Positions 5,833 through 40,004 of a stretch of 64,000 nucleotides of DNA are shown piece by piece. The translations under genes were made by a program, and so were the position numbers. Source of the stretch: Aromatoleum toluclasticum ATCC 700605. GTDB taxonomy: Bacteria > Pseudomonadota > Gammaproteobacteria > Burkholderiales > Rhodocyclaceae. The first letter of the stretch is position 1; each line of letters opens with the position of its first letter. The notes beneath the pieces are model-generated. The model was not told the origin of the DNA and searched no databases. It saw only the letters and a program-made list of their open reading frames with translations. The stretch lies in the NCBI RefSeq assembly GCF_000378245.1, contig NZ_KB899492.1:372001-436000 (forward strand). Reading direction: 5' to 3'.

Positions 5833-6591
5833 TCAGCGCGATGTCTCCAGGTGGCGCCGCGCCTGGGCCAGCTTGGCCCACAGTGTCCGTTCGCTGAGGC
5901 CGGGTCGCCCTTCGTGATGGGCCAGCAGTGCGCTCACCACGGCATCCATGTTACGGAACGACGAGTACGCCGTGCCCGACGGCGACTTGCCCAGCAGCAG
6001 CGAGAGCAACCCACCGATGATATTCAGGTAGGTCGATTCGCTGCGCAGGCCGGGCTCGCGCGCCTGATTGCCCTCGGCCACCCGCTTCGCATGGTCCTTC
6101 ACCAAGACATCGTGTTCCGCGCGTAGCGTGTCGTGCATCTGGGCCAGCTCGGCGAACTGCACCTTGGCGGCTTCCCGTTCGACCAGCAGTACGCTGAGCG
6201 TCTTGAGGTCGACGGCCGGATGCAGGGCGCGTTCGATGTCGTCGAAGAGAAAGGCTGGCTTTTCGCCAGGGTAGTAGCGGGCCACCCACGCCTTCAGGTC
6301 GACGTGCCGTACGGTCAATTCCGGGTCGTCGAGCGATGGGCGCTGCGTCGTGAGCACGATGCCCGCCGTGCCATAGGGAAGCTCCCCATGCATCAGCGCG
6401 TCGAAGATGCGTTCGGCGTACAGGCGCAGCAGCGGCCAGCGGGGAAAGTCCTGCAGTTCGGGCACGGGGCGCTGCCCCAGCGTTTGCTGAATACGCTGCT
6501 CGAAACGGATCAGGCCGCACCAGCGGATCGCGGCCTCGATCGGTCGGTAGTACGTTTTTGCGCCAAAGGCAAAGCAGCTCAATTTCGGCAT
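5833..6591 (-). CDS. bisR: BisR-like ICE regulator (novel regulator family)
   Basis: This 252-residue protein starts MPKLSCFAFGAKTYYRPIEA at the ATG at 6591; a purine-rich stretch AAAGGG lies upstream. The frame remains open to 6927, but the extension looks non-coding. It has no familiar DNA-binding signature. The C-terminus (RTLWAKLAQARRHLETS) could be a small helical domain, and AQMHDTLRAEHDVLVKDHAK looks coiled-coil. In ICEclc the gene just upstream of alpA encodes BisR (about 250 residues), founder of a new regulator family that starts transfer competence. Identity with BisR is inferred from length and place. The gene is on the same strand as alpA, separated by 124 bp. Confidence 0.6.
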   Translation of the reverse strand: MPKLSCFAFGAKTYYRPIEAAIRWCGLIRFEQRIQQTLGQRPVPELQDFPRWPLLRLYAERIFDALMHGELPYGTAGIVLTTQRPSLDDPELTVRHVDLKAWVARYYPGEKPAFLFDDIERALHPAVDLKTLSVLLVEREAAKVQFAELAQMHDTLRAEHDVLVKDHAKRVAEGNQAREPGLRSESTYLNIIGGLLSLLLGKSPSGTAYSSFRNMDAVVSALLAHHEGRPGLSERTLWAKLAQARRHLETSR

Positions 6592-7135
6592 ATCGCGCCC
6601 TTTCCATCGTCCGATCGAACCCGGCGAAACGCCGCCCGCACAGTGGCCGCGAGTGCCCAGAGAATCCGGATGAAGCGCGACGCCGGATGGCATCGCGGGG
6701 GCCGGCCCCGCATCGGCGAAGCCGCCGATGCCGCGGGGAGTGATGGCCGATTGCAACTTGCGATGCCCGATACACATCCACCATAATGCGCGCGCAAAAC
6801 CTTGTACCGGCGCAACGTTTCGATGGCCGCGCACCCGACCGCATAAGACAGGGATGCCGCGCTTTTCCCGAAAACCACGGCACAGTTTTGGCATCGATTC
6901 AGATTGGGTAAAGATCCAATGCGTCACCCGGGTGAGCCGCTTTGCATCCAGCCAGTGCTCATGCGTTCTGCATCACACCACTGACCTCGTCCGCCAATAC
7001 CGCATGCCATGGCTTGGCTGTGCCAATTGCGGCGTATGATTACGCGGCGGCAAATGGTCCTCGCCAACGCGACCGCGATGCAATTCCGGTCCATCGCGAG
7101 ACCGAAAAGGAATCGACCAGGCCGATGGGCGGTCA
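6592..7135. other. 544-bp non-coding stretch of the ICE
   Basis: This gap lies between the BisR-like gene and the 3' end of the first LysR gene. Frames that cross it are short or out of phase with the codon bias seen in real genes. It contains a small palindrome around gtcacccgggtgag (about 6924) and AT-richer patches near 6900 and 7030. It probably holds the promoter of the BisR-like gene at its left side. I see no RNA gene. Confidence 0.4.
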
Positions 7136-8047
7136 TCAAACCGACGGATGGCGATTCGCCTGCAAACGCCCGACGCGCTCGGCACGCTCGATGAATTGCA
7201 TCAACGGTCCGGTGGGTTCCCCCGCGGGCCGCAGCAGGTAAGTGGTCAGCGAAGCGCTCTGGTCGGCCAGCGGGCGGACCACCACCTGCGGTTGCCGGCA
7301 ACTCGCCAAGTGTGCCGTGCTCGAAAAACCCACCCCGTAGCCCGCGGCCACCAGGGCCAGCATCAGGTCATGGGTGGTGACGTACTCCGCCACCGTCGGC
7401 TGGGCAGCAACAGAGCGCAGCAGGCGCTCGCACCGCCGGCTGCTGCCCTCGCAGACCTCCGGATGGCACAGCACCAACGGGTAGCTGACCACTTCCTCCA
7501 GCGGCACCTCCTTGAAGGCCAACAGCGGATGCCGCGCCGGCACGGCCACCACCAAGGGGTCTTGCCACACCGGCGTGGCAACGATCTCTTCGCTCACCTC
7601 GTCGGTCAGCGCCAGCCCCGCATCGAACAGGTCCATGCTCAGGCCGCTCAGCAGTTGGCCCAGCGGCATCTCGAACAGGCGGACGCTCACATTCGGCGCT
7701 TCCTCGCGGCACAGGGCGAGCAGCGCCGACAGGCGCGCAGGCCCGATGCCATCCGACAGCGCAATGCGCAGAGTGCCGTGATACCCCGCCGCCGCGGCAC
7801 GTGCCCTGGCTTGCGCCTGCTCGAACGCGAGCGCGATGCGATGGGCATCCTCCAGGAAGATCCGCCCGGCCGAGGTCAGGCAGGCACCGCGCGGCGTACG
7901 CTTCAGCAGCGTCACGCCCAGGTCCGACTCCAGCTGGCGGATGGTACGCGACAGCGGCGACTGCTCGATGTGCAGGCGCTTCGCTGCCCGGCCGAAGTGC
8001 AATTCCTCGGCCACCGCGATGAAAGCCCGGATATGACGCAGGTTCAT
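7136..8047 (-). CDS. LysR-family regulator, TciR-like candidate
   Basis: This 303-residue LysR-type regulator has its winged helix-turn-helix at residues 3-60 (FIAVAEELHFGRAAKRLHIEQ, SPLSRTIRQLE) and an effector-binding domain of the LysR substrate fold (YHGTLRIALSDGIG near 88, CHPEVCEGSS near 195). In ICEclc a LysR regulator, TciR, activates bisR and lies at the same end of the element. This gene sits 544 bp upstream of the BisR-like gene on the same strand, so it or its sister at 8530 could be the TciR equivalent. That role is inferred. The sister gene is divergent and clearly related. Confidence 0.85.
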   Translation of the reverse strand: MNLRHIRAFIAVAEELHFGRAAKRLHIEQSPLSRTIRQLESDLGVTLLKRTPRGACLTSAGRIFLEDAHRIALAFEQAQARARAAAAGYHGTLRIALSDGIGPARLSALLALCREEAPNVSVRLFEMPLGQLLSGLSMDLFDAGLALTDEVSEEIVATPVWQDPLVVAVPARHPLLAFKEVPLEEVVSYPLVLCHPEVCEGSSRRCERLLRSVAAQPTVAEYVTTHDLMLALVAAGYGVGFSSTAHLASCRQPQVVVRPLADQSASLTTYLLRPAGEPTGPLMQFIERAERVGRLQANRHPSV

Positions 8048-25299: not shown

Positions 25300-26406
25300 C
25301 TAACGCAGCAGCGCGACGCCCTTCACCTGCGCGAACAGGTCCATGCCGGGCGCGATGCCCATCTGCACCGCGGAGCGCGTCGTGATGCGCGCGAGCAACG
25401 CATGGTCGCCAACGTCGAGACGCACCAGCGTACGTCCGGGACTCGCGTCGTCGAGGGAAACCACGCGCGCCGGCAGCACGTTGAGAATGCTCGATTCGTG
25501 GCGTTCCGCTAGCGCGAGGCTGACATCGCGCGCCAGCACGCGGGCGCGCACCTGCGCCCCGAGCGGCGCGTCGAGGCCGGTGATCCACAGCGGCAGGCCG
25601 CCGAATTCGAGCCGCGTCAACGCGAAACGCTCGTCGCGCCCTGCAACCCGCGCATCGACGACGACGAAGGCCTCCTCGTCATGCGCGAAGGGCAGGTCCA
25701 GGCGCGGCATCACCTCGTCGATCGCCCCCGACGCCAGCACCCGCCCATCGCGCAGCAGCACGACGTGATCGGCCAGCCGCGCGACCTCCTCCGGCGCATG
25801 GCTGACGTACACCACCGGGATTTCCAGCTCGCCGTGCAGGCGCTCCAGGTAGGGCAGGATCTCCGCCTTGCGTTGTGCGTCGAGCGCGGCGAGCGGTTCG
25901 TCCATCAGCAGCAGGCGCGGACTGGTCGCCAGCGCACGTGCGATCGCGACCCGCTGGCGCTCGCCGCCCGACAGCCGCTCCGGCATGCGCCCGAGCAGCG
26001 GCTCGATGCCGAGGAGCGCGATCGCATGGTCGAGCGACACGCGCCGTTCGGCCGCCGCAACCCGCTTCAGGCCGAATTCGAGATTGCGCCGCACCGACAG
26101 GTGCGGAAACAGGCTCGCTTCCTGGAACACGTAGCCGAGCGGGCGGCGGTGCGTCGGCACGAACACGCCGCGCGCATCGTCCTGCCACACCTCGCCGCGC
26201 ACCGCGAGATAGCCGTCCGTCGCCCGCTCCAGGCCGGCGAGGCAGCGCAGCAGCGTCGTCTTGCCCGAACCGGAGTGGCCGAACAGCGCGCTCACGCCTC
26301 GTCCGGGCAGCTGCAACGCCGCTTCCAACGCAAAACCGGGCCACGCCAGGCGGAAGCGCGCCTCGATGCCGGCGCCGGGAAATTGCGCTGCGGCAGCCGG
26401 GCTCAT
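25300..26406 (-). CDS. modC: Molybdate ABC transporter ATP-binding protein
   Basis: ModC is the cytoplasmic ATPase of the molybdate importer. The 368-residue protein has Walker [14 protein letters not shown] (about 43-55), the signature [15 protein letters not shown] (about 143), Walker [13 protein letters not shown] and the H-loop [11 protein letters not shown]. The C-terminal extension contains a Mop/TOBE domain ([16 protein letters not shown] and following) as expected for ModC. Its ATG overlaps the modB stop (ATGA). Confidence 0.95.
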
Positions 26407-27074
26407 CGCACGCCCCCGCGCTTGCGGCTATGCAGCAGGAACAGCACGAGAAAGCTGAACACCACCATGCCGGCGGAGAGCCAGTGCGCCTGCGCGTATT
26501 CGAGCGCCTCGACGTGGTCGTAGATCTGCACCGACACGACGCGCGTCTTCTCCGGGATGTTGCCGCCAATCATCAGCACCACGCCGAATTCGCCGACCGT
26601 GTGGGCGAATCCCAGCACCGCCGCGGTGACGAAGCCCGGCCGCGCGAGCGGCAACACCACGCTGAAGAAGGTGTCCAGCGCGCCGGCGCGCAAGGTCGCG
26701 GCGACCTCCAGCGGGCGCTCGCCGATCGCCTCGAAGGCCTGCTGCAGCGGTTGCACGACGAAGGGCAGGGAATAGAACACCGAGCCGACGACCAGGCCGG
26801 CAAAGCTGAAGGGCAGCAGGCCCAGTCCCAGCGCCTGCGTGAACTGGCCGACCGGTCCGTGCGGCCCCATCAGCAGCAGCAGGTAGAAGCCGATCACGGT
26901 GGGCGGCAGCACCAGCGGCAGCGCGACGACGGCGCCCACCGCGCCCCTGAACGCCGAACGCGTGCGCGCGAGCCACCACGCGACGGGCGTGCCGATCACG
27001 AGCAGGATCGCGGTCGTCACGGCCGCGAGCTCCAGCGTCAGCCGGATCGCCGCAAGATCGGCTGCACTCATCAT
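26403..27074 (-). CDS. modB: Molybdate ABC transporter permease
   Basis: ModB is the membrane subunit of the molybdate importer. The 223-residue protein starts at the ATG pair at 27074/27071. It has about five hydrophobic segments, the [17 protein letters not shown] segment near residue 50 typical of ModB, and the ABC coupling motif in [25 protein letters not shown] near 135. It overlaps modC by 4 bp and follows modA by 13 bp. Confidence 0.95.
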
Positions 27075-27087
27075 CGTCCCGTCCGCC

Positions 27088-28708
<1,621 letters not shown>

Positions 28709-28866: not shown

Positions 28867-28915
28867 GTCACAAACCCGACAATCCTTACGAACGAACATG
28901 ACAAGGAATCCCGCC

Positions 28916-29344
28916 ATGAAAGTCAGCGCACGCAATGTTTTTCGCGGCACCGTGAGCGCCCTGCGTCCCGGCAGCGTCAATGCCGAGGTCGAGCTCGCCC
29001 TGGCGGGCGGCGACCGCCTCGTCGCGATCGTCACGATGGAAAGCGTGAGGACGCTCGGCATCGCGGTCGGCAACGAGGTCGTCGCGCTGGTGAAGGCGCC
29101 GTGGGTGATGGTGATGACCGACGCCAGCGGCGTGCGCCTGTCGGCGCGCAACTGCCTCGGCGGCACGGTGAAGTCGGTGGCGCCCGGCGCGGTGAATGCG
29201 GAGGTCGTGATCACGCTCGCGAGCGGGGCGGAAGTGGCCGCGATCGTCACGAAGGAAGCGGTGGGGGAACTGGGCCTGAAACCGGGCGTGGCTGCCACGG
29301 CCGTGATCAAGGCCTCGCACGTCTTCCTCGGCGTGCCGACCTAG
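28916..29344 (+). CDS. Di-Mop molybdenum-pterin/molybdate-binding protein
   Basis: This 142-residue protein consists of two Mop (TOBE) domains and nothing else: VSARNVFRGTVSALRPGSVNAEV at the start and LSARNCLGGTVKSVAPGAVNAEV near residue 72. Such proteins (ModG or molbindin type) store molybdate in the cytoplasm. The ATG at 28916 has AAGGA upstream; an upstream ATG at 28898 lacks one. It is divergent from modE with 207 bp between starts and about 170 bp before the PhnD-type gene on the same strand. Confidence 0.9.
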   Translation: MKVSARNVFRGTVSALRPGSVNAEVELALAGGDRLVAIVTMESVRTLGIAVGNEVVALVKAPWVMVMTDASGVRLSARNCLGGTVKSVAPGAVNAEVVITLASGAEVAAIVTKEAVGELGLKPGVAATAVIKASHVFLGVPT

Positions 29345-29429
29345 AACTTTCGTGCAATACGTCACGCGCATCGGAAGCCTAAGGTCTTGAATTCTGCTGC
29401 CATCCCGTTCATGCTGCCGGCGCATAAGA

Positions 29430-29443
29430 TATATGTAACCAAT
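29430..29443 (+). promoter_or_regulatory. TATATGTA motif shared with the mod promoters
   Basis: TATATGTAACCAAT lies 73 bp before the start of the PhnD-type gene. The Mop gene has TATATGTAGCTAAT at 28843-28856 and modE has TATATGTTAATCG at 28724-28736. These are the only such AT-rich words noticed in this GC-rich area. It could be a common operator or just -10-like sequence. Confidence 0.35.
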
Positions 29444-29515
29444 AAGAACAAGACGAGGCTCACGTGCCCATATTCACGGCGCGGGACTATTTGATCCACA
29501 AGGGAGACGGCTGGT

Positions 29516-30478
29516 ATGACCAGGGGGATTAAGGGCGCGCGGGACGCCAGGCAAACGCTCGCCGATACGCGGGAGCGCAGCAGCGCGGGTACTGCGCTCG
29601 CCGGCCGCCGCCACGTCATGCTCGGACTGCTGGCGACCCTCGGGCTGTCGCTCGCCGAACGCTCGATCCCCGCCGCGCTGGCCTCGAGCGCGGCGCCACT
29701 CGTGATGGGAATCTTCCCGCGGCGCCAGGCGACGCTGACCACGGAACTCTACGCACCGCTCGCCGCCTACCTCGGGCGCGAGCTCGGGCGGGAGGTCCAG
29801 CTCGTCACCGCGAAGGATTTCGACGCATTCTGGGACGGCGTCGAACAGCGGCGTTTCGATATCGTCCATTACAACCAGTTCCACTACGTCCGCTCCGCCG
29901 ACAAGTACCGCGTCATCGCGCACAACGAGGAGTTCGGCACCGGCACGGTCGCCGGTGCGCTCTACGTCAGGAAGGACAGCGGCATCAACGCGATCGCGCA
30001 GCTGCGCGGGCGCAAGATCGTGTTCGGCGGGGGCACGGACGCGATGATGAGCTACATCCTGCCCAGCTACCTGCTGCTCGAGGCGGGGCTGAAGCCGGGC
30101 GACTACGAGACGGTGTTCTCCAAGAATCCGCCCAATTCGCTGATTTCGCTGTACCACGGCCAGGCCGACGCGAGCGGGGCGGGCGACATCCTGATCGACC
30201 TGCCGGTCGTGCGCAACGCGATGGACACCAGCACCGTCACTCACCTCGGCATGACCGAACGCGTGCTGCACCTACCCTGGGCGGTACGCAAGGACATGCC
30301 GCAGGCCCTCGCCGCGCGCATCCAGGCGCTACTGGTCGAACTGCCGGCGCGCGAGGAGGGGCGCGCGATCCTCGCCCGGGCCGAGATGACCGGCTTCGGC
30401 GAGGCGCGCGACGCCGACTACGACCCCCACCGCCGCATCATCCGCAAGGTCATGCCGTCGATCGACCTCCCGCGCTGA
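29516..30478 (+). CDS. PhnD-type oxyanion-binding periplasmic protein
   Basis: This 320-residue periplasmic protein belongs to the PhnD/SsuA/transferrin-like binding fold. It starts at the ATG at 29516 behind GGGAGA. The N-terminus has GRRHVMLGLLATLGLSLAE, a twin-arginine-like export signal. The mature part begins APLVMGIFPRRQATLTTELYAPL and has RFDIVHYNQFHYVRSADKY and GRKIVFGGGTDAMMSYILPSYLL, typical of PhnD relatives that bind phosphite, phosphonate or other oxyanions. There are no ABC permease or ATPase genes nearby; instead a GGDEF/EAL membrane protein starts 15 bp downstream. It may be the ligand sensor for that protein. The ligand is unknown. Confidence 0.85.
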   Translation: MTRGIKGARDARQTLADTRERSSAGTALAGRRHVMLGLLATLGLSLAERSIPAALASSAAPLVMGIFPRRQATLTTELYAPLAAYLGRELGREVQLVTAKDFDAFWDGVEQRRFDIVHYNQFHYVRSADKYRVIAHNEEFGTGTVAGALYVRKDSGINAIAQLRGRKIVFGGGTDAMMSYILPSYLLLEAGLKPGDYETVFSKNPPNSLISLYHGQADASGAGDILIDLPVVRNAMDTSTVTHLGMTERVLHLPWAVRKDMPQALAARIQALLVELPAREEGRAILARAEMTGFGEARDADYDPHRRIIRKVMPSIDLPR

Positions 30479-30493
30479 GCACGGAGAGCGCCC

Positions 30494-32560
30494 TTGCGCC
30501 TCGCGAGCAAGTTCATCCTCACCGTGGCCGGCATCCTGTCGGTCACGCTGGCGCTGAACGCCTGGTTCTTCCTGCGCAGCCAGAACCACCTCCTGGAACA
30601 GCAGCTCAACGAGCGCGGCCGCGTGCTTGGCCACCTGATCGCGCTGATCAGCCCCGAGGCGATTCTCGGCCTCGATTTCCTGACCCTCAACGCTTACGCG
30701 CGCGAGGTCAGCCGGCAGCGTGACGTCGTCTATGGTGTGATCGTCGACAATGACGAGCAGCCGCTGACGTCCTACGTGAACGGCGACGATCCGCACATCC
30801 GCAGCAGCCTCGGCGTCGACGGGCCGACGCCGGATCATCTGCCGCCGCCCCGCCTGCAGACACTGATCCGGGAGCTCGCGGCGCTGCCCGACGTGATCCC
30901 GATCGAGTTTCCGATCGCACACGACGGTCGCCCGCTGGGCCGCCTGCAGGTCGGCATCAGTCGCGCGGAACTCGCCATGCAGGCGCGCGAGCAGCTCCTG
31001 CAGCAGTTCGGCATCTATGCGGCGATCATCCTGTTCCTGAGCGTCGCGATCTACCTCGTGTTCCGCTACAGTGTGATGCGTCCGGTGCAGCGCCTGATCG
31101 AGGTCTCGCGCGACGTCGGGCGCGGCGAATTCACGCTCGTCCCGGTGACCTCGGGCGACGAGCTGGGGCGCCTCGGCGAGACCTTCAACGCGATGACGCT
31201 CGAGATCCAGCGCGAACAGGCCAAGCTGCACCATCAGGCGAACTACGATTCGCTGACGGCCCAGCCGAACCGCATGCTCGCGGTCGAGCGGCTGCAGCAG
31301 GAGATCCGTTCGGCGCATCGCCAGCAGCAACGCTTCGCGCTGATGTTCATCGACCTCGACGACTTCAAGATCGTCAACGACACGATGGGGCACGCCGCGG
31401 GCGACCGCCTGCTCGCGCACGTGAGCGCACACATCCGCGCGCGCCTGCGTGACGAAGACACGCTCGCGCGGCTCGGCGGCGACGAATTCCTGGTGCTGCT
31501 GCCGCGCCTCGGCCAGGCGAACGACGCCCGGGACGTCGCCGACCGGCTGCTCGCTGCGGTGGCCGAGCCGGTGACGCTCGACGGACGCGAGGTGGTCGTG
31601 CATTGCAGCATCGGCATCGCACTGTACCCCGACGACGGTGAAACGGTCGAGGCGCTGATGGCCAACGCCGACAACGCGATGTATCAGGCGAAAAGACCCG
31701 GACGGGCGCCGATCTGCTTCTTCACCGCGGAGATGAACGCCCAGGTGCACGAGCGCCTGCGCCTCGAACAGGATCTCAACAAGGTCATCGCGCGGGGCGA
31801 ACTGCAGCTCGAGTTCCAGCCCATCTTCCGCGCCGCGGACGGCGCCTACGTCGGCGCCGAGGTGCTGCTGCGCTGGTGGCACCCCGAACGCGGCTTCATC
31901 AGCCCGGCGACCTTCATCCCGCTCGCCGAAAGCACCGGCCAGATCGTCGCGATCGGCGAATGGGTGCTGCGCGAGGCAGGGCGGCAGCTGCGCTGCTGGC
32001 TGGACGCGGGACTCGCGCCGGGCTATCTGGCGGTCAACCTTTCGCGCGTGCAGCTGCGCGAGGACCTGGAGCTGCTGATCCGCGAAGTCCTCGACACTAA
32101 CGAATTGCCGCCGCAGGCCCTGGAGCTCGAGATCACCGAGAACATCCTGCTCGACGACCACCAGCAGATCAACGCGGTGCTGGGACGGCTGCACGCGCAG
32201 GGGTTGAGCTTCAGCCTCGACGACTTCGGCACGGGCTACTCCTCGCTCAGCTACCTGCGCCGCTTCTCGTTCGACACGCTGAAGATCGACCGCAGCTTCG
32301 TCGCGCCGCTGTGCGACGACGCCGAGGCCGCCGCGCTGGTGCGCGCGATCGTCGCGATGGCGCACAGCCTCGCGCTGAAAGTGATCGCCGAGGGCGTGGA
32401 GACCCGCGCACAGATGGAATTCCTCCGGGACCTGCACTGCGACTACCTGCAGGGCTACCTGTTGTCGCACCCGCTCGACGCCGAGCACTTCACCACCTTC
32501 CTCACCCGCTGCGCACGCGACTCCCTGCCCAGGGACAGCGTGCCGACGTTTGTCCAATGA
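30494..32560 (+). CDS. Membrane HAMP-GGDEF-EAL c-di-GMP protein
   Basis: This 688-residue protein starts at a TTG at 30494 behind GGAGAG; no ATG is placed as well. It has TM1 at about 7-27, a periplasmic sensor of about 135 residues, TM2 at about 173-192, a HAMP-like linker (RPVQRLIEVSRDVGRGEF), GGDEF (motif at about 328-332, intact, with RxxD I-site RDED at about 319) and EAL. The EAL motif reads EVL (AEVLLRWW, about 455-461), but the catalytic glutamates, DDFGTGYSS, KIDRSF and EGVE are kept. The preceding gene encodes a PhnD-type binding protein, and the next gene overlaps its stop (ATGA). It probably converts binding-protein occupancy into c-di-GMP changes; this is inferred. Confidence 0.9.
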   Translation: MRLASKFILTVAGILSVTLALNAWFFLRSQNHLLEQQLNERGRVLGHLIALISPEAILGLDFLTLNAYAREVSRQRDVVYGVIVDNDEQPLTSYVNGDDPHIRSSLGVDGPTPDHLPPPRLQTLIRELAALPDVIPIEFPIAHDGRPLGRLQVGISRAELAMQAREQLLQQFGIYAAIILFLSVAIYLVFRYSVMRPVQRLIEVSRDVGRGEFTLVPVTSGDELGRLGETFNAMTLEIQREQAKLHHQANYDSLTAQPNRMLAVERLQQEIRSAHRQQQRFALMFIDLDDFKIVNDTMGHAAGDRLLAHVSAHIRARLRDEDTLARLGGDEFLVLLPRLGQANDARDVADRLLAAVAEPVTLDGREVVVHCSIGIALYPDDGETVEALMANADNAMYQAKRPGRAPICFFTAEMNAQVHERLRLEQDLNKVIARGELQLEFQPIFRAADGAYVGAEVLLRWWHPERGFISPATFIPLAESTGQIVAIGEWVLREAGRQLRCWLDAGLAPGYLAVNLSRVQLREDLELLIREVLDTNELPPQALELEITENILLDDHQQINAVLGRLHAQGLSFSLDDFGTGYSSLSYLRRFSFDTLKIDRSFVAPLCDDAEAAALVRAIVAMAHSLALKVIAEGVETRAQMEFLRDLHCDYLQGYLLSHPLDAEHFTTFLTRCARDSLPRDSVPTFVQ

Positions 32561-33138
32561 GCCACAGTCAGCCCGACGCCGCGCTCGCCGCCATGCGCAA
32601 CCGCCAGCGCGCCATACGCCAGGCACGCCTCAAGGTCGTGCTGCGCGGCGCACTGGGCGCCGCCACCGTGGTCGGCTTCGTGCTGTGGGCCCATTTCGCC
32701 TCCGGCCGTCCGATGTTCTCACCGCACGGAACGCCCGAAGCCGGCTGGGAGGCGTTTCGCGACGCCTATGGCGTCAACGCCTTCGGCCGCGACGGCTATT
32801 TCGTGCGCGCGGTCCAGAACGGCTACAACCTCGTGTACCACACGCACAAGTACGCCTGGCGCTTCACGCGCAAGGGTGCCCATGACCATCCGAACGCGTG
32901 CAGCGACTGCCACGGCGCGGAAGCGCTGGCGTACGCCTTCGCGGCCGGCGACCGCTTCGACGCGCGGCTCGGGCGACGGGTGTCCTTCGAGGAGCGCGTG
33001 ATGCGCTGCTATGCGACGCATCTCGACGGCTTCATCCCGACGATCCACGAGCCGGCGGTACGCGACATCCGCATCTTCGCCCGCATGGTCGCCCACCACC
33101 TGCAGCTCGGCGAGGGCGCGCTGGAGGGCGCGCGGTGA
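32557..33138 (+). CDS. Membrane-anchored monohaem cytochrome c
   Basis: This 193-residue protein starts at the ATG at 32557, overlapping the GGDEF/EAL stop. It has one N-terminal membrane anchor at about 27-47 and a single haem c motif CSDCH at 115-119. The segment between (DAYGVNAFGRDGYFVRAVQNGYNLVYHTHKY) does not resemble common cytochrome c families known to me. Histidine-rich ends (HTHKY, HDHPN, VAHHLQL) could give a second axial ligand. It could pass electrons between the following dihaem cytochrome and the membrane chain; this is inferred from the operon. Confidence 0.8.
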   Translation: MSHSQPDAALAAMRNRQRAIRQARLKVVLRGALGAATVVGFVLWAHFASGRPMFSPHGTPEAGWEAFRDAYGVNAFGRDGYFVRAVQNGYNLVYHTHKYAWRFTRKGAHDHPNACSDCHGAEALAYAFAAGDRFDARLGRRVSFEERVMRCYATHLDGFIPTIHEPAVRDIRIFARMVAHHLQLGEGALEGAR

Positions 33139-34232
33139 AGCCGCTCGCGCCGGCCTGGCGGAAAGCAGTGCGACTCGCGCTGCTCGTCGGCGTGCTGCTC
33201 GCACTGTATGCGCTCGCGCTCGCGAAGCACGACGAGCGCGAGCGCATCCGCGAGCAGCCCGTGACGCTGACGCCGGGCTGCTCCGACAAGCTCGCCCGCT
33301 ACGGCCTCGCGGCCGGCGCGACCTACGTCTCGCCCTACGCGCTCGCGCGCACCGGGCAGGCGATCGTGCGCCAGGGGTACAGCGAGGAGGACGTGCGCGC
33401 GATCCAGCGCGGCTGCAACATCATCGACGACCTGCAGGGACAGCTCGCCGCGGACCCCGCGCGCGAGCGCTGGAACGCGACGCGCTTCGTGCGCGGCACC
33501 CACACCAGCTGCGACCACTGCCACCAGGGCATCGGCGACAAGCAGACCGCGGCCGGCGTGCCCCAGACCGGCTCGCTGAGCCTCGCCGGGTCGTGGGTCA
33601 TGGCCGACATGTATGACCAGTTCACCGGCATCCTGCTGCCCTACGAACTGCGCCAGATGCAGTGCTACATCAACTCGTCGAACGGCTTCAAGCCGAACAT
33701 CGCCGACGACCTGATCCGCGACGTCACCGCGTACGGGCGCTTCCTCGCGGCGGCGCTCGACCTGCGCTTCGGCAACCGCTATCCGGAACAGGGCATCGAC
33801 GAAATCACCGCATCGCAGACCGACAAGCGCGGCGACGACTACGTGCGCGGCGGCGCGCTGTTCCGCGAGAAGTGCGCGCGCTGCCACGGCCCGCAGGGCC
33901 TGGGTACGGTCGTCGACGGCAAGGTGCTGTTTCCGGCGGTGGCCGGGCCGAACGCGTTCAACCTGCAGTCGCGCAACAACTTCTCCTTCGTGTCGACGAT
34001 CCTGCCCGGTTTCATCTGCCGCAACATGCCGCTCGGCGAGGAAGGCTCGCTCTCCAACCAGGATTGCCGCGACATCGCCTTCTACGTCAGCAACCTGCCG
34101 CGCCCCGCCGGCGACAAGCAGGGGCCGCTCGCGGCGCTGTGGCAGCAGCTGATGATGCGCGTGATGCCGCCGCTGATCCGTACCATCGAATCCTGGCAGC
34201 GGCCGGGCGAAGCCGTGGGGAACGGGGCATGA
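33135..34232 (+). CDS. TsdA-like dihaem cytochrome c
   Basis: This 365-residue protein starts at a GTG at 33135 overlapping the previous stop (GTGA). It has a membrane segment at about 12-30 and two haem c motifs: CDHCH at 126-130 and CARCH at 247-251. Between them, RQMQCYINSSNG (Cys177, 47 residues after the first haem histidine) resembles the CxxRSMNG region of TsdA thiosulfate dehydrogenase and of SoxA, where a cysteine ligates the haem. The C-terminal half has GGALFREKCARCHGPQGLGT, typical of a class I domain. TsdA joins two thiosulfates to tetrathionate. Activity here is not proven; the substrate could be another sulfur compound. Confidence 0.78.
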   Translation: MKPLAPAWRKAVRLALLVGVLLALYALALAKHDERERIREQPVTLTPGCSDKLARYGLAAGATYVSPYALARTGQAIVRQGYSEEDVRAIQRGCNIIDDLQGQLAADPARERWNATRFVRGTHTSCDHCHQGIGDKQTAAGVPQTGSLSLAGSWVMADMYDQFTGILLPYELRQMQCYINSSNGFKPNIADDLIRDVTAYGRFLAAALDLRFGNRYPEQGIDEITASQTDKRGDDYVRGGALFREKCARCHGPQGLGTVVDGKVLFPAVAGPNAFNLQSRNNFSFVSTILPGFICRNMPLGEEGSLSNQDCRDIAFYVSNLPRPAGDKQGPLAALWQQLMMRVMPPLIRTIESWQRPGEAVGNGA

Positions 34233-35812
34233 ACGTGAAGAGCGGTGTGTTCGAGTGGGCGCTGCCGCGCGTTGGCGCGCTCGGCAACGAGCTGCTGATC
34301 GGGCTGACGCTCGCGATCGTCGTGCTGCCGCAGGCGATCGCGTTCTCGACGACGCTGGCCGGCCTGCCCTCGTATTTCGGCCTCTACAGCGCGATCTGGG
34401 GCGTGCTGTTCACGGCGCTGCTGAACCCCTCGCGGGTGTTCCACGGCGGGCCCAACAGCACGCTGTCGGCGGTCGTCGGCGTCACGCTGCTGCCGGTCGC
34501 GCCGCAATTCGGCCCCGACTACATCGGCTACGCGCTGACGCTGTTCCTGCTCGCCGGGCTGATCCAGCTGGTGATCCTCGCGGTGCGGCCGCTCGGACGG
34601 ATGCTCGACTTCGTCAGCGAACCGGTTGCCAACGGCATGATCTGCGGCATCGGCCTGTACATGATCTTCAAGTCCTTCCCGGCCTTCGCCGGGCTGCCGA
34701 TCAACACCCAGGTCGAATGGCGCCTGTGGATCGCGTGGCAGAGCTTCCTCGCGGTGCTCGAGATCGGCAACCTGCACGCGATCCACATCGGCCTGATCAC
34801 GCTGCTGGTGACCGTCGTCACGCGCCAGTTCGCGGCATTGCGCAACTGGGCGATCCTGCTCGGCATCGTCGCCGGCACGCTGTACTCGGAATACCTGAGC
34901 GCGCGCCTCGGCCTTGGCGAAACGCTGATCGAACAGACGGCCAATGTCTCCACGGGTTTCGTGTACCCGTCGCTGCCGCTGTTTGCCCAGGAGGCGATGC
35001 CCGACATCATCAGCATCATCCCCGGCGCGGTCACGCTCGCGCTGCTGGGCCTGTTCCAGACCGTCGCGGCGATGCGGCGCATGAACCGCCGCAGCGGCCA
35101 GTTCGTCGACGCGCGTCACGGCATCTTCGCCGACGCGCTCTCCAACTGCGTGCTGCCCTTCATCTCGGCGCTGCCGACCTGCGCATCGTTCAACCGCATG
35201 TCGCTGATGCACGCGATGAACACCGGCAGCCGGCTCGCCGCCGTCTCATCGGCGCTGTTCCTGCTCGCGCTGGTGAGCTTCTTCGGCGAGTTCATCGCGA
35301 TCATCCCGGTGCCGGCGATGGCCGCGATCATCATGGTCGTCGGCGCCAACATGATCGACTGGTCGGACATCCGCGCGCACTTCCAGCACCGCCCCGAAGC
35401 GATCGTCTTCAGCGCGTCCTTCCTGTCAGTTCATCTCTTCGGCCTCTTCGGCGCGGTGATCTGCGGCTCGCTGCTCGCCCTCGCCTACGCGAAGTGGGAG
35501 AAGGCGCATCCCAACGTCAGCCTCGAGCACAACGTGCTGCGCATCCGCGGCAACATCTACTACGGCTCACTGCCGGTGATCGAGTCGCTCTACCACCGGG
35601 CCAGCACCGACGCGCGCATCGACGAGCTGGTGGTCGATTTCTCCGCGGTCCACCACATCGACCCGGAGGGCATCCGCTGGCTCGCCGAAGTCGGCAGGAA
35701 CGGGAAGGTGCGCCTCATCGACCGACGCAGCGGGCAGGACCGGCGCGCGGTTTCGGGCGAATCCCCACCCGACCGCAAGCGCCGCGACCGCCGCCGCCGG
35801 CGCACACTGTAG
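34229..35812 (+). CDS. SulP-family anion permease with STAS domain
   Basis: This 527-residue member of the SulP/SLC26 family starts at the ATG at 34229, overlapping the upstream stop (ATGA). It has about eleven to twelve membrane segments with AIVVLPQAIAFSTTLAGLPS YFGLYS near residue 30 and the GGPNSTLSAVVGV segment near 75, the family signature around the substrate site. The C-terminal STAS-like domain is at about 425-500 (LRIRGNIYYGSLPVIESL, VVDFSAVHHIDPEGIRWLAE); it ends in a Arg-rich tail. SulP proteins carry sulfate, molybdate, bicarbonate or other anions. With the TsdA-like cytochrome beside it, a sulfur oxyanion is the first guess. Confidence 0.9.
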   Translation: MNVKSGVFEWALPRVGALGNELLIGLTLAIVVLPQAIAFSTTLAGLPSYFGLYSAIWGVLFTALLNPSRVFHGGPNSTLSAVVGVTLLPVAPQFGPDYIGYALTLFLLAGLIQLVILAVRPLGRMLDFVSEPVANGMICGIGLYMIFKSFPAFAGLPINTQVEWRLWIAWQSFLAVLEIGNLHAIHIGLITLLVTVVTRQFAALRNWAILLGIVAGTLYSEYLSARLGLGETLIEQTANVSTGFVYPSLPLFAQEAMPDIISIIPGAVTLALLGLFQTVAAMRRMNRRSGQFVDARHGIFADALSNCVLPFISALPTCASFNRMSLMHAMNTGSRLAAVSSALFLLALVSFFGEFIAIIPVPAMAAIIMVVGANMIDWSDIRAHFQHRPEAIVFSASFLSVHLFGLFGAVICGSLLALAYAKWEKAHPNVSLEHNVLRIRGNIYYGSLPVIESLYHRASTDARIDELVVDFSAVHHIDPEGIRWLAEVGRNGKVRLIDRRSGQDRRAVSGESPPDRKRRDRRRRRTL

Positions 35813-35872
35813 CGGCCGCCGCCGGCACTCCCGTGCCCCGGCCGGCACGGCGATCGCGCGCGGATCGAAGAC

Positions 35873-36253
35873 TTACTTCTTCGCGATGGTCGCGTCCTCG
35901 ACCAGCAGCGGGTACAGGTAGCCCGACCCGAAGTCGCGGTCGAGCTTGACGTTGCCGGTCACGACGACCTCGTCGCCGACCGCGGCCGTGTCCTTGCTCG
36001 TGACGATGAGGTTGTTGCTGCCCTCCTCGCCCGAACCGTCGCGCACGTGGACGAAGTTGCGTCCCATGATGCCGTTGTTCACCTTGACGACCTTGCCGCT
36101 GACCTGGATCGCCTTGCCCGACAGCCCGGCCTTTTCCTGATACACGGCGGCAACGGTCTTGACGGCGGCATCCGCGGCAAAGGCGGCGGGGGCGACGGAA
36201 CCGATCATTCCGGCGATGAGGATGACGCGGGTGAGGGCGAGAACTTTCTTCAC
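35873..36253 (-). CDS. Small secreted OB-fold-like protein
   Basis: This 126-residue protein starts at a GTG at 36253 behind AGGAG. The signal peptide (KKVLALTRVILIAGMIGSV, cleavage near AFA-ADA) precedes a small beta-rich domain: GKAIQVSGKVVKVNNGIMGRNFVHVRDGS, then GDEVVVTGNVKLDRDFGSGYLYP. This pattern (GKVVKVN, RNFVHVRDG, TGNVKLD) is that of the periplasmic OB-fold proteins. The function is unknown. It converges with the SulP gene, with 60 bp between stops. Confidence 0.78.
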   Translation of the reverse strand: MKKVLALTRVILIAGMIGSVAPAAFAADAAVKTVAAVYQEKAGLSGKAIQVSGKVVKVNNGIMGRNFVHVRDGSGEEGSNNLIVTSKDTAAVGDEVVVTGNVKLDRDFGSGYLYPLLVEDATIAKK

Positions 36254-36374
36254 GAACAGACTCCTGCTGGTGGGTCCGCATACGGACATGAGGGCGATGC
36301 TGCAGCCGGCCATTGTATACCGCGCCGAGATCCGATGAATGGCGTTTGCATTTACTCACCCGCCGGAAAAGACC

Positions 36375-36410
36375 TCCGCCCCCCTGGACGCGGACCGCGG
36401 CGGGGGCGGA
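36375..36410. terminator. Hairpin downstream of the chemoreceptor gene
   Basis: A 9-bp stem, tccgccccc / gggggcgga, with an 18-nt loop rich in G and C lies 39 bp beyond the chemoreceptor stop on its strand. There is no T run, so terminator function is tentative. Confidence 0.35.
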
Positions 36411-38056: not shown

Positions 38057-38345
38057 TATTCGACTCCCCTGACTTCATTGCGATTCGGGGACGGGCGATT
38101 GCCGTCCCGCCTTGAGATCTTAACGTCGTGCCCCCGGCGTTATTGAGCTTATTTTTCTGCAAATTCATGCATTTCGACGACCCAGAATGGGCGTCGAGTC
38201 GTACGCATCCGCTTCCGGCGGTCGTCCGGATGACATCCAACCGGAATATATACGCTATCGTCATTTATCCAACCGCTCCGGCTGAACGGCAATGCAATAA
38301 TTGGCATTCGCCCCTGCTTTCCCCCGATTTCCGGAGACCGCGACG

Positions 38346-40004
38346 ATGGCACGCATCCACCCCGAAGGCTGGCAACGCATCCCCGCAAGCGGGGCGCTGG
38401 CGCGCGAGCTCGAGACGCTCGCGACCCTTGCCGAAGGTTTGCCCGATGACCACGCGGTGTATCACGGCATCCACTGGACGCGGGTGAACCGCGAGCACGC
38501 ACTGTTCGGCGAGATCGATTTCGTCGTCGTCGGCCCCAGCGGGCGCATGCTGCTGATCGAGCAGAAGTCGGGCTACCTCGACGAGACGCAGGACGGGCTG
38601 GTCAAAGCCTACGCGAAGGCGAAGAAGAACGTCGGCGTGCAGATGGCGCGCAGCGCCGGCCAGCTGCGCGAGCGCCTGGGCGCCTTCCTGAAGGGCCACC
38701 AGGCGCGCATCGACGCCCTGCTCTACTGCCCGGACTATGTGGTACGCCAGCCCGGCAGCGCCGGCATCGACCCGGCGCGCATCATCGATGCGAGCCGCCG
38801 CGAGCACCTCGTCGCGATCGTGCAAAGCCTGCTGCGCGACGAGGTGCGCGACCGCGTCGTGCTCGATAACATCCACCGCTTTCTCACCGACGAGCTGGAG
38901 CTGGTGCCGGAGGTGAGCGCGATCGTCGGCCAGGCGGAGGCGCTATACACGCGGCTCGCCGGCGGGCTGGCAGAGTGGGCGCGGCGCATCGAGATGCAGC
39001 CCTTCCGCCTGCGCGTCACCGGCACCGCCGGCAGCGGCAAGACGCAGCTCGCGATGGCGGTGTTCCGCGACGCGCTCGCGGCGGGGCGGCGGCCGCTGTA
39101 CGTGTGCTACAACCGCCCGCTCGCCGACCACATCGCGCTGATCGCGCCGCCCGGCGGCGAGATCGCGACCTACCACCAGCTGTGCGACCGGGTTCTGCGC
39201 GCGCACGGCGAGGTGCCGGATTTCCGCCTGCCCGACGCCTTCGCCCGCATCGAAATGCGCTTCGCGGCGCTCGACCCCGGCGCGGCATGGCGCTTCGACG
39301 AGCTCATCGTCGACGAGGGGCAGGATTTCCGCTCGGAATGGCTGGACGCGCTGCTGCGCCTGTTGCGACCGGACGGACGTGCGTGGTGGCTGGAGGATCC
39401 GCTGCAGAACCTCTACGACCGTCCGCCCGTCGAGCTGCCGGGCTGGGTGCGCATCACCAGCGAACGCAACTACCGCAGCCCGACCGACATCCTCGACGCG
39501 CTCAACCGCCTGCTGCCGCTGCCTCGTCCGCTCGAGGCGGGCAGCCCGCTCACCGGCTCGGACGTCGAGTTCCTGACATGGGCCGACAGCGCCGGGCTCA
39601 TCGATGCGACCAAGCGCGCGATGACGCGCGCCATCGGGCTGGGCTTCCGCCGCGACATGATCGCGACGATCACCTTCCGCGGACGCGAGCATTCGGTGTT
39701 CACGCCCTTCGACCGCCTCGGCGCACACCGCCTCAAGGCCTTCACCGGCAGCTACGACCTGCTCGGCAATCCCGTGTATTCGGATGGCGACTTCCTCATC
39801 GACTCCGTCTACCGCTTCAAGGGGCAGGCCGCGCCCTGCGTGATCTTCACCGAGATCGATTTCGAGGCGCTCGACCCGCTGACGGTGCGCAAGCTCTTCG
39901 TCGGCGCGACGCGCGCGGGCATGAAGCTGATCATGGTGCTGTCGGAGCGCGCGGCCGGCACGCTGATGGCCACGCCTGCCCGCGGGCCGGAGTCGGCGCG
40001 CTGA
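38346..40004 (+). CDS. NERD-nuclease/SF1-helicase fusion protein
   Basis: This 552-residue protein fuses an N-terminal NERD (nuclease-related) domain to a superfamily 1 helicase-like ATPase. The NERD part shows the PD-(D/E)xK core GEIDFVVVGPSGRMLLIEQKSG (Asp near 60, then EQK near 75). The ATPase has Walker A GTAGSGKTQLA (about 225-235), a Walker B-like DELIVDEGQDF (about 317), SERNYRSPTDI and the C-terminal YRFKGQAAPCVIFTEID and VGATRAGMKLIMV motifs of the UvrD/Rep fold. The ATG at 38346 follows GGAGA. It is a lone gene with a large upstream gap. Roles in DNA or RNA processing or defence are possible; none is shown here. Confidence 0.85.
   Translation: MARIHPEGWQRIPASGALARELETLATLAEGLPDDHAVYHGIHWTRVNREHALFGEIDFVVVGPSGRMLLIEQKSGYLDETQDGLVKAYAKAKKNVGVQMARSAGQLRERLGAFLKGHQARIDALLYCPDYVVRQPGSAGIDPARIIDASRREHLVAIVQSLLRDEVRDRVVLDNIHRFLTDELELVPEVSAIVGQAEALYTRLAGGLAEWARRIEMQPFRLRVTGTAGSGKTQLAMAVFRDALAAGRRPLYVCYNRPLADHIALIAPPGGEIATYHQLCDRVLRAHGEVPDFRLPDAFARIEMRFAALDPGAAWRFDELIVDEGQDFRSEWLDALLRLLRPDGRAWWLEDPLQNLYDRPPVELPGWVRITSERNYRSPTDILDALNRLLPLPRPLEAGSPLTGSDVEFLTWADSAGLIDATKRAMTRAIGLGFRRDMIATITFRGREHSVFTPFDRLGAHRLKAFTGSYDLLGNPVYSDGDFLIDSVYRFKGQAAPCVIFTEIDFEALDPLTVRKLFVGATRAGMKLIMVLSERAAGTLMATPARGPESAR

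Follow-up and report, generated by a model that had tools for sequence, protein, structure and literature searches.

The 64,000-nucleotide stretch of the Aromatoleum toluclasticum ATCC 700605 genome analysed here (contig NZ_KB899492.1, positions 372,001 to 436,000; hereafter the window) carries five co-directional genes encoding a PhnD-type periplasmic binding protein, a membrane HAMP-GGDEF-EAL protein, two cytochromes c (hereafter cyt1 and cyt2) and a SulP-family permease. An initial annotation proposed that these genes form a single system. Coordinates and junctions are as it described them: a 15 bp gap separates the binding-protein gene from the GGDEF-EAL gene, which has a TTG start, and 4-bp overlaps join GGDEF-EAL to cyt1 (ATGA), cyt1 to cyt2 (GTGA) and cyt2 to SulP (ATGA). 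Pfam backs every gene assignment except that of cyt1. The features, in window coordinates, are as follows.

29343..35868, no strand: whole gained or lost block, consisting of the five genes, a 173 bp leader and 56 bp of 3' flank (blastn against locus L140)
29516..30478, + strand: PhnD-type periplasmic binding protein, proposed sensor, 320 amino acids (PF12974, 1e-48)
30494..32560, + strand: membrane HAMP-GGDEF-EAL protein, 688 amino acids (Pfam HAMP; GGDEF, 2.5e-49; EAL, 1.6e-70)
32557..33138, + strand: cyt1, monohaem cytochrome with predicted TsdA/SoxA fold and N-terminal hydrophobic segment, 193 amino acids
32899..32913, + strand: cyt1 haem motif C115-x-x-C118-H119 (25/25 sequences)
33007..33009, + strand: cyt1 Cys151, candidate axial haem ligand by comparison with TsdA/SoxA (25/25)
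33135..34232, + strand: cyt2, TsdA-like dihaem cytochrome c, 365 amino acids (phmmer to TsdA 4wqc, 3.2e-21, and alignment)
33510..33524, + strand: cyt2 haem 1 motif, C126-C129-H130 (25/25 sequences)
33663..33665, + strand: cyt2 Cys177, equivalent of TsdA Cys123 by alignment (25/25 sequences)
33873..33887, + strand: cyt2 haem 2 motif, C247-C250-H251 (25/25 sequences)
34026..34028, + strand: cyt2 Met298, counterpart of the haem-2 Met ligand, directly after Asn297 (25/25 sequences)
34229..35812, + strand: SulP-family permease with a weak STAS domain, 527 amino acids (PF00916, 2.6e-46)

One terminator-like site was seen in 29200-36400, where 2.9 were expected. The leader, aligned across seven loci, is conserved only in patches.

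Conservation of the gene set

The five-gene unit is real: its synteny is conserved in beta- and gammaproteobacteria, its genes are present or absent jointly, and a related genome preserves an empty site. Co-occurrence, which the initial annotation had named as the check to run, was assessed in 61 related genomes and in 369 genomes of the class (which, as used here, takes in the betaproteobacteria). In addition, scanning GTDB genomes with a cyt1 alignment gave 24 named loci from Aromatoleum/Azoarcus, Marinobacterium, Motiliproteus, betaproteobacterial metagenome-assembled genomes (MAGs), Acidiferrobacteraceae and other gammaproteobacteria; one of the betaproteobacterial records is titled Bordetella parapertussis and is probably misnamed. 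Picked through cyt1, these loci are silent on any locus without it, which the whole-genome searches cover. The GGDEF-EAL gene was scored at the loci only. Seven genomes apparently belong to both the named loci and the samples (L048/G015, L050/G013, L051/G004, L056/G041, L068/G161, L069/G061 and L071/G001), so the two sets were kept separate and their counts are not summed.

Among the 61 relatives, cyt1 occurs in nine, and the binding protein (at least 52% identity), cyt2 (at least 67%) and SulP (at least 66%) all occur in those same nine genomes. Relaxing the cyt2 threshold to 1e-10 extends its matches to 17/61 genomes, the eight outside the carriers reaching at most 32% identity. Across the class, this cyt2 subfamily and the SulP subfamily are found in the same 4/369 genomes; cyt1 is strong in three of these, and in the fourth the contig starts inside cyt2. 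At E 0.001 cyt1 matches 17/369 genomes, 14 of them weakly (best 9.3e-6); these 14 are probably TsdA-type proteins and were left uncounted. Six other class genomes have cyt2 matches at E <= 1e-20, and because these reach at most 33% identity we treat cyt2 as a discrete subfamily. No match to cyt1 was found in a plasmid collection at 1e-5.

All 24 named loci hold cyt1, cyt2 and SulP in that order, and 20 of them hold all five genes; the binding-protein gene leads in nine and GGDEF-EAL in 11. The other four (L065, L066, L068 and L069) have the triplet without the sensor pair, which shows that the core can do without sensing. That core is the cyt1-cyt2-SulP triplet, to which the sensor is a usual but dispensable addition. 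The proposal of a single system thus stands at the computational level: homologues of the five genes co-occur, and the block comes and goes in one piece, with the sensor pair missing from 4/24 clusters. Gene families other than these five are shared by a few of the 24 loci at most.

The pairwise distance matrices of the five proteins are correlated (r 0.87-0.96, 19 rows, no control for shared descent), in agreement with one unit, though shared descent would also produce this. Two loci counted among the 20, L055 (GGDEF truncated where the contig stops, 101 amino acids) and L058, were left out of this correlation, and L058 was also left out of the binding-protein tree below. The binding protein of L058 (7006-7974) lies in two frames, as does the SulP of L065 (9655-11167), which was counted as present; assembly error or decay is possible in both.

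Boundaries and transfer of the block

A Mop/TOBE-only protein gene (28898-29344) adjoins the block on one side, and a gene at 35873 lies on the other. In a same-genus genome, G009 (locus L140), blastn matches stop at window position 29342 and resume at 35869; 77 bp stand there in place of 29343-35868, between the Mop gene and the 35873 gene. In three more non-carriers (G002, G016 and G003) modA adjoins the 35873 gene and there is no block.

In the midpoint-rooted cyt2 tree, the Aromatoleum group plus the betaproteobacterial MAG L049 joins the gammaproteobacteria Marinobacterium and Motiliproteus (support 95/92). Of the 11 remaining betaproteobacterial or unplaced rows, ten make up a separate clade (100/100), and L057 falls on the gammaproteobacterial/Aromatoleum side. 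The binding-protein tree likewise joins Aromatoleum with Marinobacterium (95/89) and these with Motiliproteus (99/93), with L057 placed among the other betaproteobacteria. Its cluster members form one clade (100/99) whose two subclades match the two gene orders. Aromatoleum cyt2 clusters with copies from gammaproteobacteria, so transfer of the block from one lineage to another is probable. The simplest reading of the trees would be that the five-gene set arose once, that its order was swapped once and that the block was passed between lineages.

Upstream, beyond the Mop gene, a divergent ATP-binding cassette (ABC) set and a TOBE-helix-turn-helix regulator occupy 25300-28708; we take these genes to be modC, modB, modA and modE, their domains coming from a domain scan. 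We considered the molybdate (mod/Mop) genes as a part of the system and rejected them: they stay in place in L140 without the block. Strong mod/Mop matches flank the block in four Aromatoleum/Azoarcus loci (L048, L050, L051 and L071). In the Marinobacterium, Motiliproteus and other betaproteobacterial MAG loci no mod/Mop gene lies within ~8 kb, except for a 35% modB match in L049. Downstream, window 35873-36313 encodes a 146-residue protein with a signal-peptide-like start, judged by eye, that is present in 11/17 same-genus genomes and has no Pfam or NCBIfam match at 0.01. A protein that combines a NERD nuclease-related domain with a UvrD-like helicase domain (38301-40004) lies near the unit and is not part of it.

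The cytochromes and the permease

The description of cyt2 as a TsdA-like dihaem cytochrome is borne out. Pfam finds cytochrome c domains, NCBIfam only sub-threshold bc1 and cbb3 cytochrome models, and the match to TsdA (PDB 4wqc, 3.2e-21) spans residues 121-334 and both haem domains. Both CxxCH motifs are invariant in 25/25 sequences. In TsdA, Cys123 is both the haem-1 ligand and the catalytic cysteine (PMC4423706), the haem-2 Met is strictly conserved, and in the Campylobacter jejuni enzyme an Asn precedes this Met (PMC5146829). With the TsdA positions Arg119 and Ser127 in precursor numbering, cyt2 keeps the equivalents of Cys123 (C177, 25/25), Arg119 (R173, 25/25), Ser127 (S181, 24/25) and Met209 (M298, 25/25). 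It therefore resembles the TsdA enzymes of A. vinosum, C. jejuni and Marichromatium (TsdBA) across both haem domains, down to the Asn directly before the haem-2 Met that it shares with C. jejuni TsdA.

Unlike TsdA, cyt2 has an N-terminal extension with a hydrophobic segment, constant cyt1 and SulP partners, and four extra invariant cysteines (49, 94, 295 and 311) besides the haem and catalytic ones. It also has Phe163 at the Arg109 position in 25/25 sequences, next to a residue 162 that is Arg in 19 and Gln in six. Arg109 contacts thiosulfate in TsdA and is replaced by Lys in some members (PMC4423706). Because cyt2 has Phe in place of Arg or Lys, we file it as a relative of TsdA and not as TsdA itself, and its substrate may differ.

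The other cytochrome, cyt1, had been described as a monohaem cytochrome. It does have a single CxxCH (invariant, 25/25), but it appears not to be generic. Its Pfam match to SoxA-TsdA_cyt-c (PF21342) is sub-threshold (17 bits against a cut-off of 27), there is no NCBIfam match at E 0.01, and a PDB profile search with an 11-row cyt1 alignment returned no cytochrome. The kinship to TsdA/SoxA is visible only in the predicted structure, which has the fold of the TsdA/SoxA catalytic domain. From this model we predict that cyt1 is a single, free-standing haem domain of the TsdA/SoxA kind, whose candidate Cys ligand is invariant; the haem ligands of both cytochromes are putative assignments by alignment. 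The protein cyt1 differs from SoxA in SoxXA in that it is a single domain without a conserved Arg119 equivalent, the SoxX-like second domain being found in its neighbour cyt2. As a subunit it more probably transfers electrons or handles substrate than forms a second full active site. In one gammaproteobacterial MAG (L069:7884-8843) cyt1 has a long, repetitive, Lys/Arg-rich C-terminal tail and a total length of 319 residues.

The permease scores 158.6 bits for Pfam Sulfate_transp (cut-off 23.2) and 25.4 bits for STAS (cut-off 22.6), and falls below the NCBIfam sulP cut-off (135.5 against 380.45). At E <= 1e-60 it is found only in genomes that also hold this cyt2 subfamily (9/61 and 4/369).

The binding protein and its signalling partner

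The nearest solved relatives of the binding protein are PtxB (7.5e-21) and then ArrX and AioX. It had been described as lacking ABC partners, and this held: 13 proteins encoded between 25300 and 40000 were scanned, and ABC genes among them are confined to the divergent set at 25300-27843, which has its own binding protein. The family is broader than the unit, occurring in 33/369 class genomes at 1e-20. Genomes other than that of the window gave 42 matches, of which we examined 14 (L108-L122 without L120). A signalling-protein gene adjoins the binding protein in 13 of these 14 regions; in the other, L111, the contig ends ~1 kb downstream. Six of the 13 partners are of histidine-kinase type, some with receiver or histidine phosphotransfer domains, and seven are GGDEF-EAL proteins. 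HAMP scores above the cut-off in ten partners, at it in one and below it in one, and is absent from one. The N-terminal regions of several partners, kinases included, align with that of the window's GGDEF-EAL protein.

As one family feeds interchangeable outputs, a transporter role is hard to explain. The binding protein is most likely a sensor, given that its relatives elsewhere adjoin histidine kinases or GGDEF-EAL proteins, and these neighbourhoods lend support to the earlier idea that it reports to the GGDEF-EAL protein. This one family of PhnD-type proteins, with its interchangeable kinase or GGDEF-EAL outputs, would be a modular anion-receptor family. At the triplet-only locus L068, a distant PhnD-type protein (6299-7210) lies divergently upstream of the cluster and is perhaps a separately recruited sensor.

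The GGDEF-EAL protein has a presumed periplasmic domain between two hydrophobic segments in its hydropathy profile. The GGDEF, RxxD and EAL-type motifs are kept in the 20 covering sequences apart from conservative changes at some positions.

Discussion

On balance we favour, if by no great degree, a unit in which periplasmic redox chemistry of the thiosulfate/tetrathionate type is served by a dedicated SulP and reported to cyclic di-GMP (c-di-GMP) by a pair resembling NspS-MbaA. In this proposal cyt2 would be a TsdA-type enzyme acting in the periplasm on a sulfur oxyanion, most likely thiosulfate/tetrathionate. Its Cys-ligated haem 1 would do the chemistry and its Met-ligated haem 2 would exchange electrons, with membrane-anchored cyt1 as the constant partner. 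The SulP would carry the anion, be it substrate or product, across the inner membrane. In most carriers the binding protein would sense the anion and dock on the periplasmic domain of the GGDEF-EAL protein, so shifting c-di-GMP synthesis or breakdown as NspS does on MbaA. The substrate, the direction of the reaction, the cyt1-cyt2 complex, the docking of the binding protein, the c-di-GMP outcome and the direction of SulP transport are all inferred here.

There are precedents for the separate steps. Thiosulfate (ThsSR) and tetrathionate (TtrSR) are signals for kinases whose sensing domains are PhnD-like (PMC5408782), and TtrRS activates tsdBA (PMC11293645). The NspS-MbaA pair links a binding protein with a GGDEF-EAL enzyme (PMC8967002), and a commentary reports that a c-di-GMP receptor stimulates TsdA in Qipengyuania (PMC10267684). 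Among the 61 relatives, and uncorrected for descent, SoxY is present in 9/9 carriers against 32/52 others, a weak fit to sulfur chemistry.

A number of observations count against the thiosulfate/tetrathionate proposal: this same commonness of SoxY in non-carriers; the Phe at the Arg109 position; and the four loci that do without the sensor pair. The cyt1 residue at the Arg119 position, four ahead of the Cys, is R in 19, S in three, H in two and K in one of 25 sequences, and the Ser127 position of cyt1 is variable. Foldseek with the cyt1 model gave no match at E 0.001 or better, TsdA chains leading at 7e-3. In sequence the binding protein lies nearer to phosphite (PtxB)/PhnD proteins than it does to TtrS. 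The model of the GGDEF-EAL sensor region is weak (predicted local distance difference test score, pLDDT, 69); we concluded nothing from its scattered matches, which include LapD and PAS/CACHE-like sensor domains. No promoter-like site was found in 29200-36400, where 0.5 were expected, a count that, like that of terminators, is uninformative. The earlier interpretation is partly supported overall, and its oxyanion chemistry is a hypothesis: the kinship of cyt2 to TsdA is strong, but Arg109 is replaced and two catalytic side chains vary in cyt1.

Several of these points would suit a functional system for another anion (phosphite, arsenite, a selenium oxyanion or an organosulfur anion) in which a TsdA-type fold has been re-purposed. 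The invariant Phe, the unconserved Arg119 and Ser127 side chains of cyt1, the ranking of PtxB, ArrX and AioX as nearest relatives of the binding protein and the SulP score far under the sulP cut-off all point that way. Yet cyt2 keeps the Cys, Arg119, Ser127 and Met209 equivalents, and SoxY is found in every one of the nine carriers. The TsdA/SoxA enzymes described so far have thiosulfate and its conjugates as substrates, and the R109A exchange in A. vinosum TsdA is only mildly harmful, costing little in kcat and raising Km about five-fold at low ferricyanide (PMC4423706). We consider a different anion rather unlikely. It is more doubtful still that the operon houses two modules kept in company by co-transfer and not by a common substrate: a triplet for sulfur redox, and a c-di-GMP sensor that works independently and detects phosphite/phosphate-like anions. 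The triplet does occur without the pair, and the binding-protein family does serve other sensors in genomes without cyt1 or this cyt2 subfamily. But the binding proteins of the clusters form one clade, and the pair has stayed with the triplet through the order swap and the probable transfer between lineages, with no other gene carried along in most loci; moreover, the triplet-only locus L068 carries a separate, distant PhnD-type protein. That ordinary genes merely came to lie side by side by chance and share no function is hardly credible in view of the presence or absence of the block as a whole, the synteny conserved across beta- and gammaproteobacteria and the overlapping genes. Returning to the thiosulfate/tetrathionate proposal, we also put forward, tentatively and with less than even confidence, that cyt1 and cyt2 make up a two-protein, triple-haem TsdA/SoxA-type enzyme transferred with its own SulP, and that the PhnD-type binding protein turns the level of periplasmic sulfur oxyanion directly into c-di-GMP, as part of an anion-gated c-di-GMP receptor encoded alongside the enzyme that produces or uses up its ligand.

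Each part of the unit is of a known kind. Judged from its genes, the sensor pair resembles NspS-MbaA of Vibrio cholerae in setting a periplasmic binding protein beside a HAMP/GGDEF/EAL membrane protein with intact motifs. NspS is a PotD-type polyamine-binding protein; here, by contrast, the binding protein is PhnD-type (PF12974), its predicted ligand is an anion and it is encoded with redox enzymes. A PhnD-type periplasmic sensor module is shared with AioX-AioS, ArrX-ArrS, TtrS and ThsS, although homology to TtrS is weak (27.8 bits). Those systems drive histidine kinases, AioX and ArrX being paired with the kinases AioS and ArrS, whereas the output here is a GGDEF-EAL protein. The LOV-DGC-mPilZ/TsdA system of Qipengyuania flava also ties c-di-GMP to a TsdA-type enzyme; as a commentary describes it, light acts there through a kinase, a response-regulator cyclase and a PilZ protein (PMC10267684), in contrast to a periplasmic binding protein encoded with the enzyme. 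A literature search, made mostly outside subscription journals and on partial texts, found no description of this five-gene composition. In the accessible part of PMC9237845, SulP and GGDEF proteins are mentioned at other places of a Halomonas genome and not with tsdBA. The combination may be new.

The block would bring together, as a single transferable unit, a candidate periplasmic sensor, the c-di-GMP enzyme and an enzyme of TsdA type. Named Aromatoleum and Marinobacterium strains carry it, so the link between sensor, c-di-GMP and enzyme is directly testable. In cyt1 it would also offer a free-standing Cys-haem domain as the constant partner of a TsdA relative. And the SulP subfamily, so far found only with cyt1 and cyt2, would give a SulP a redox context.

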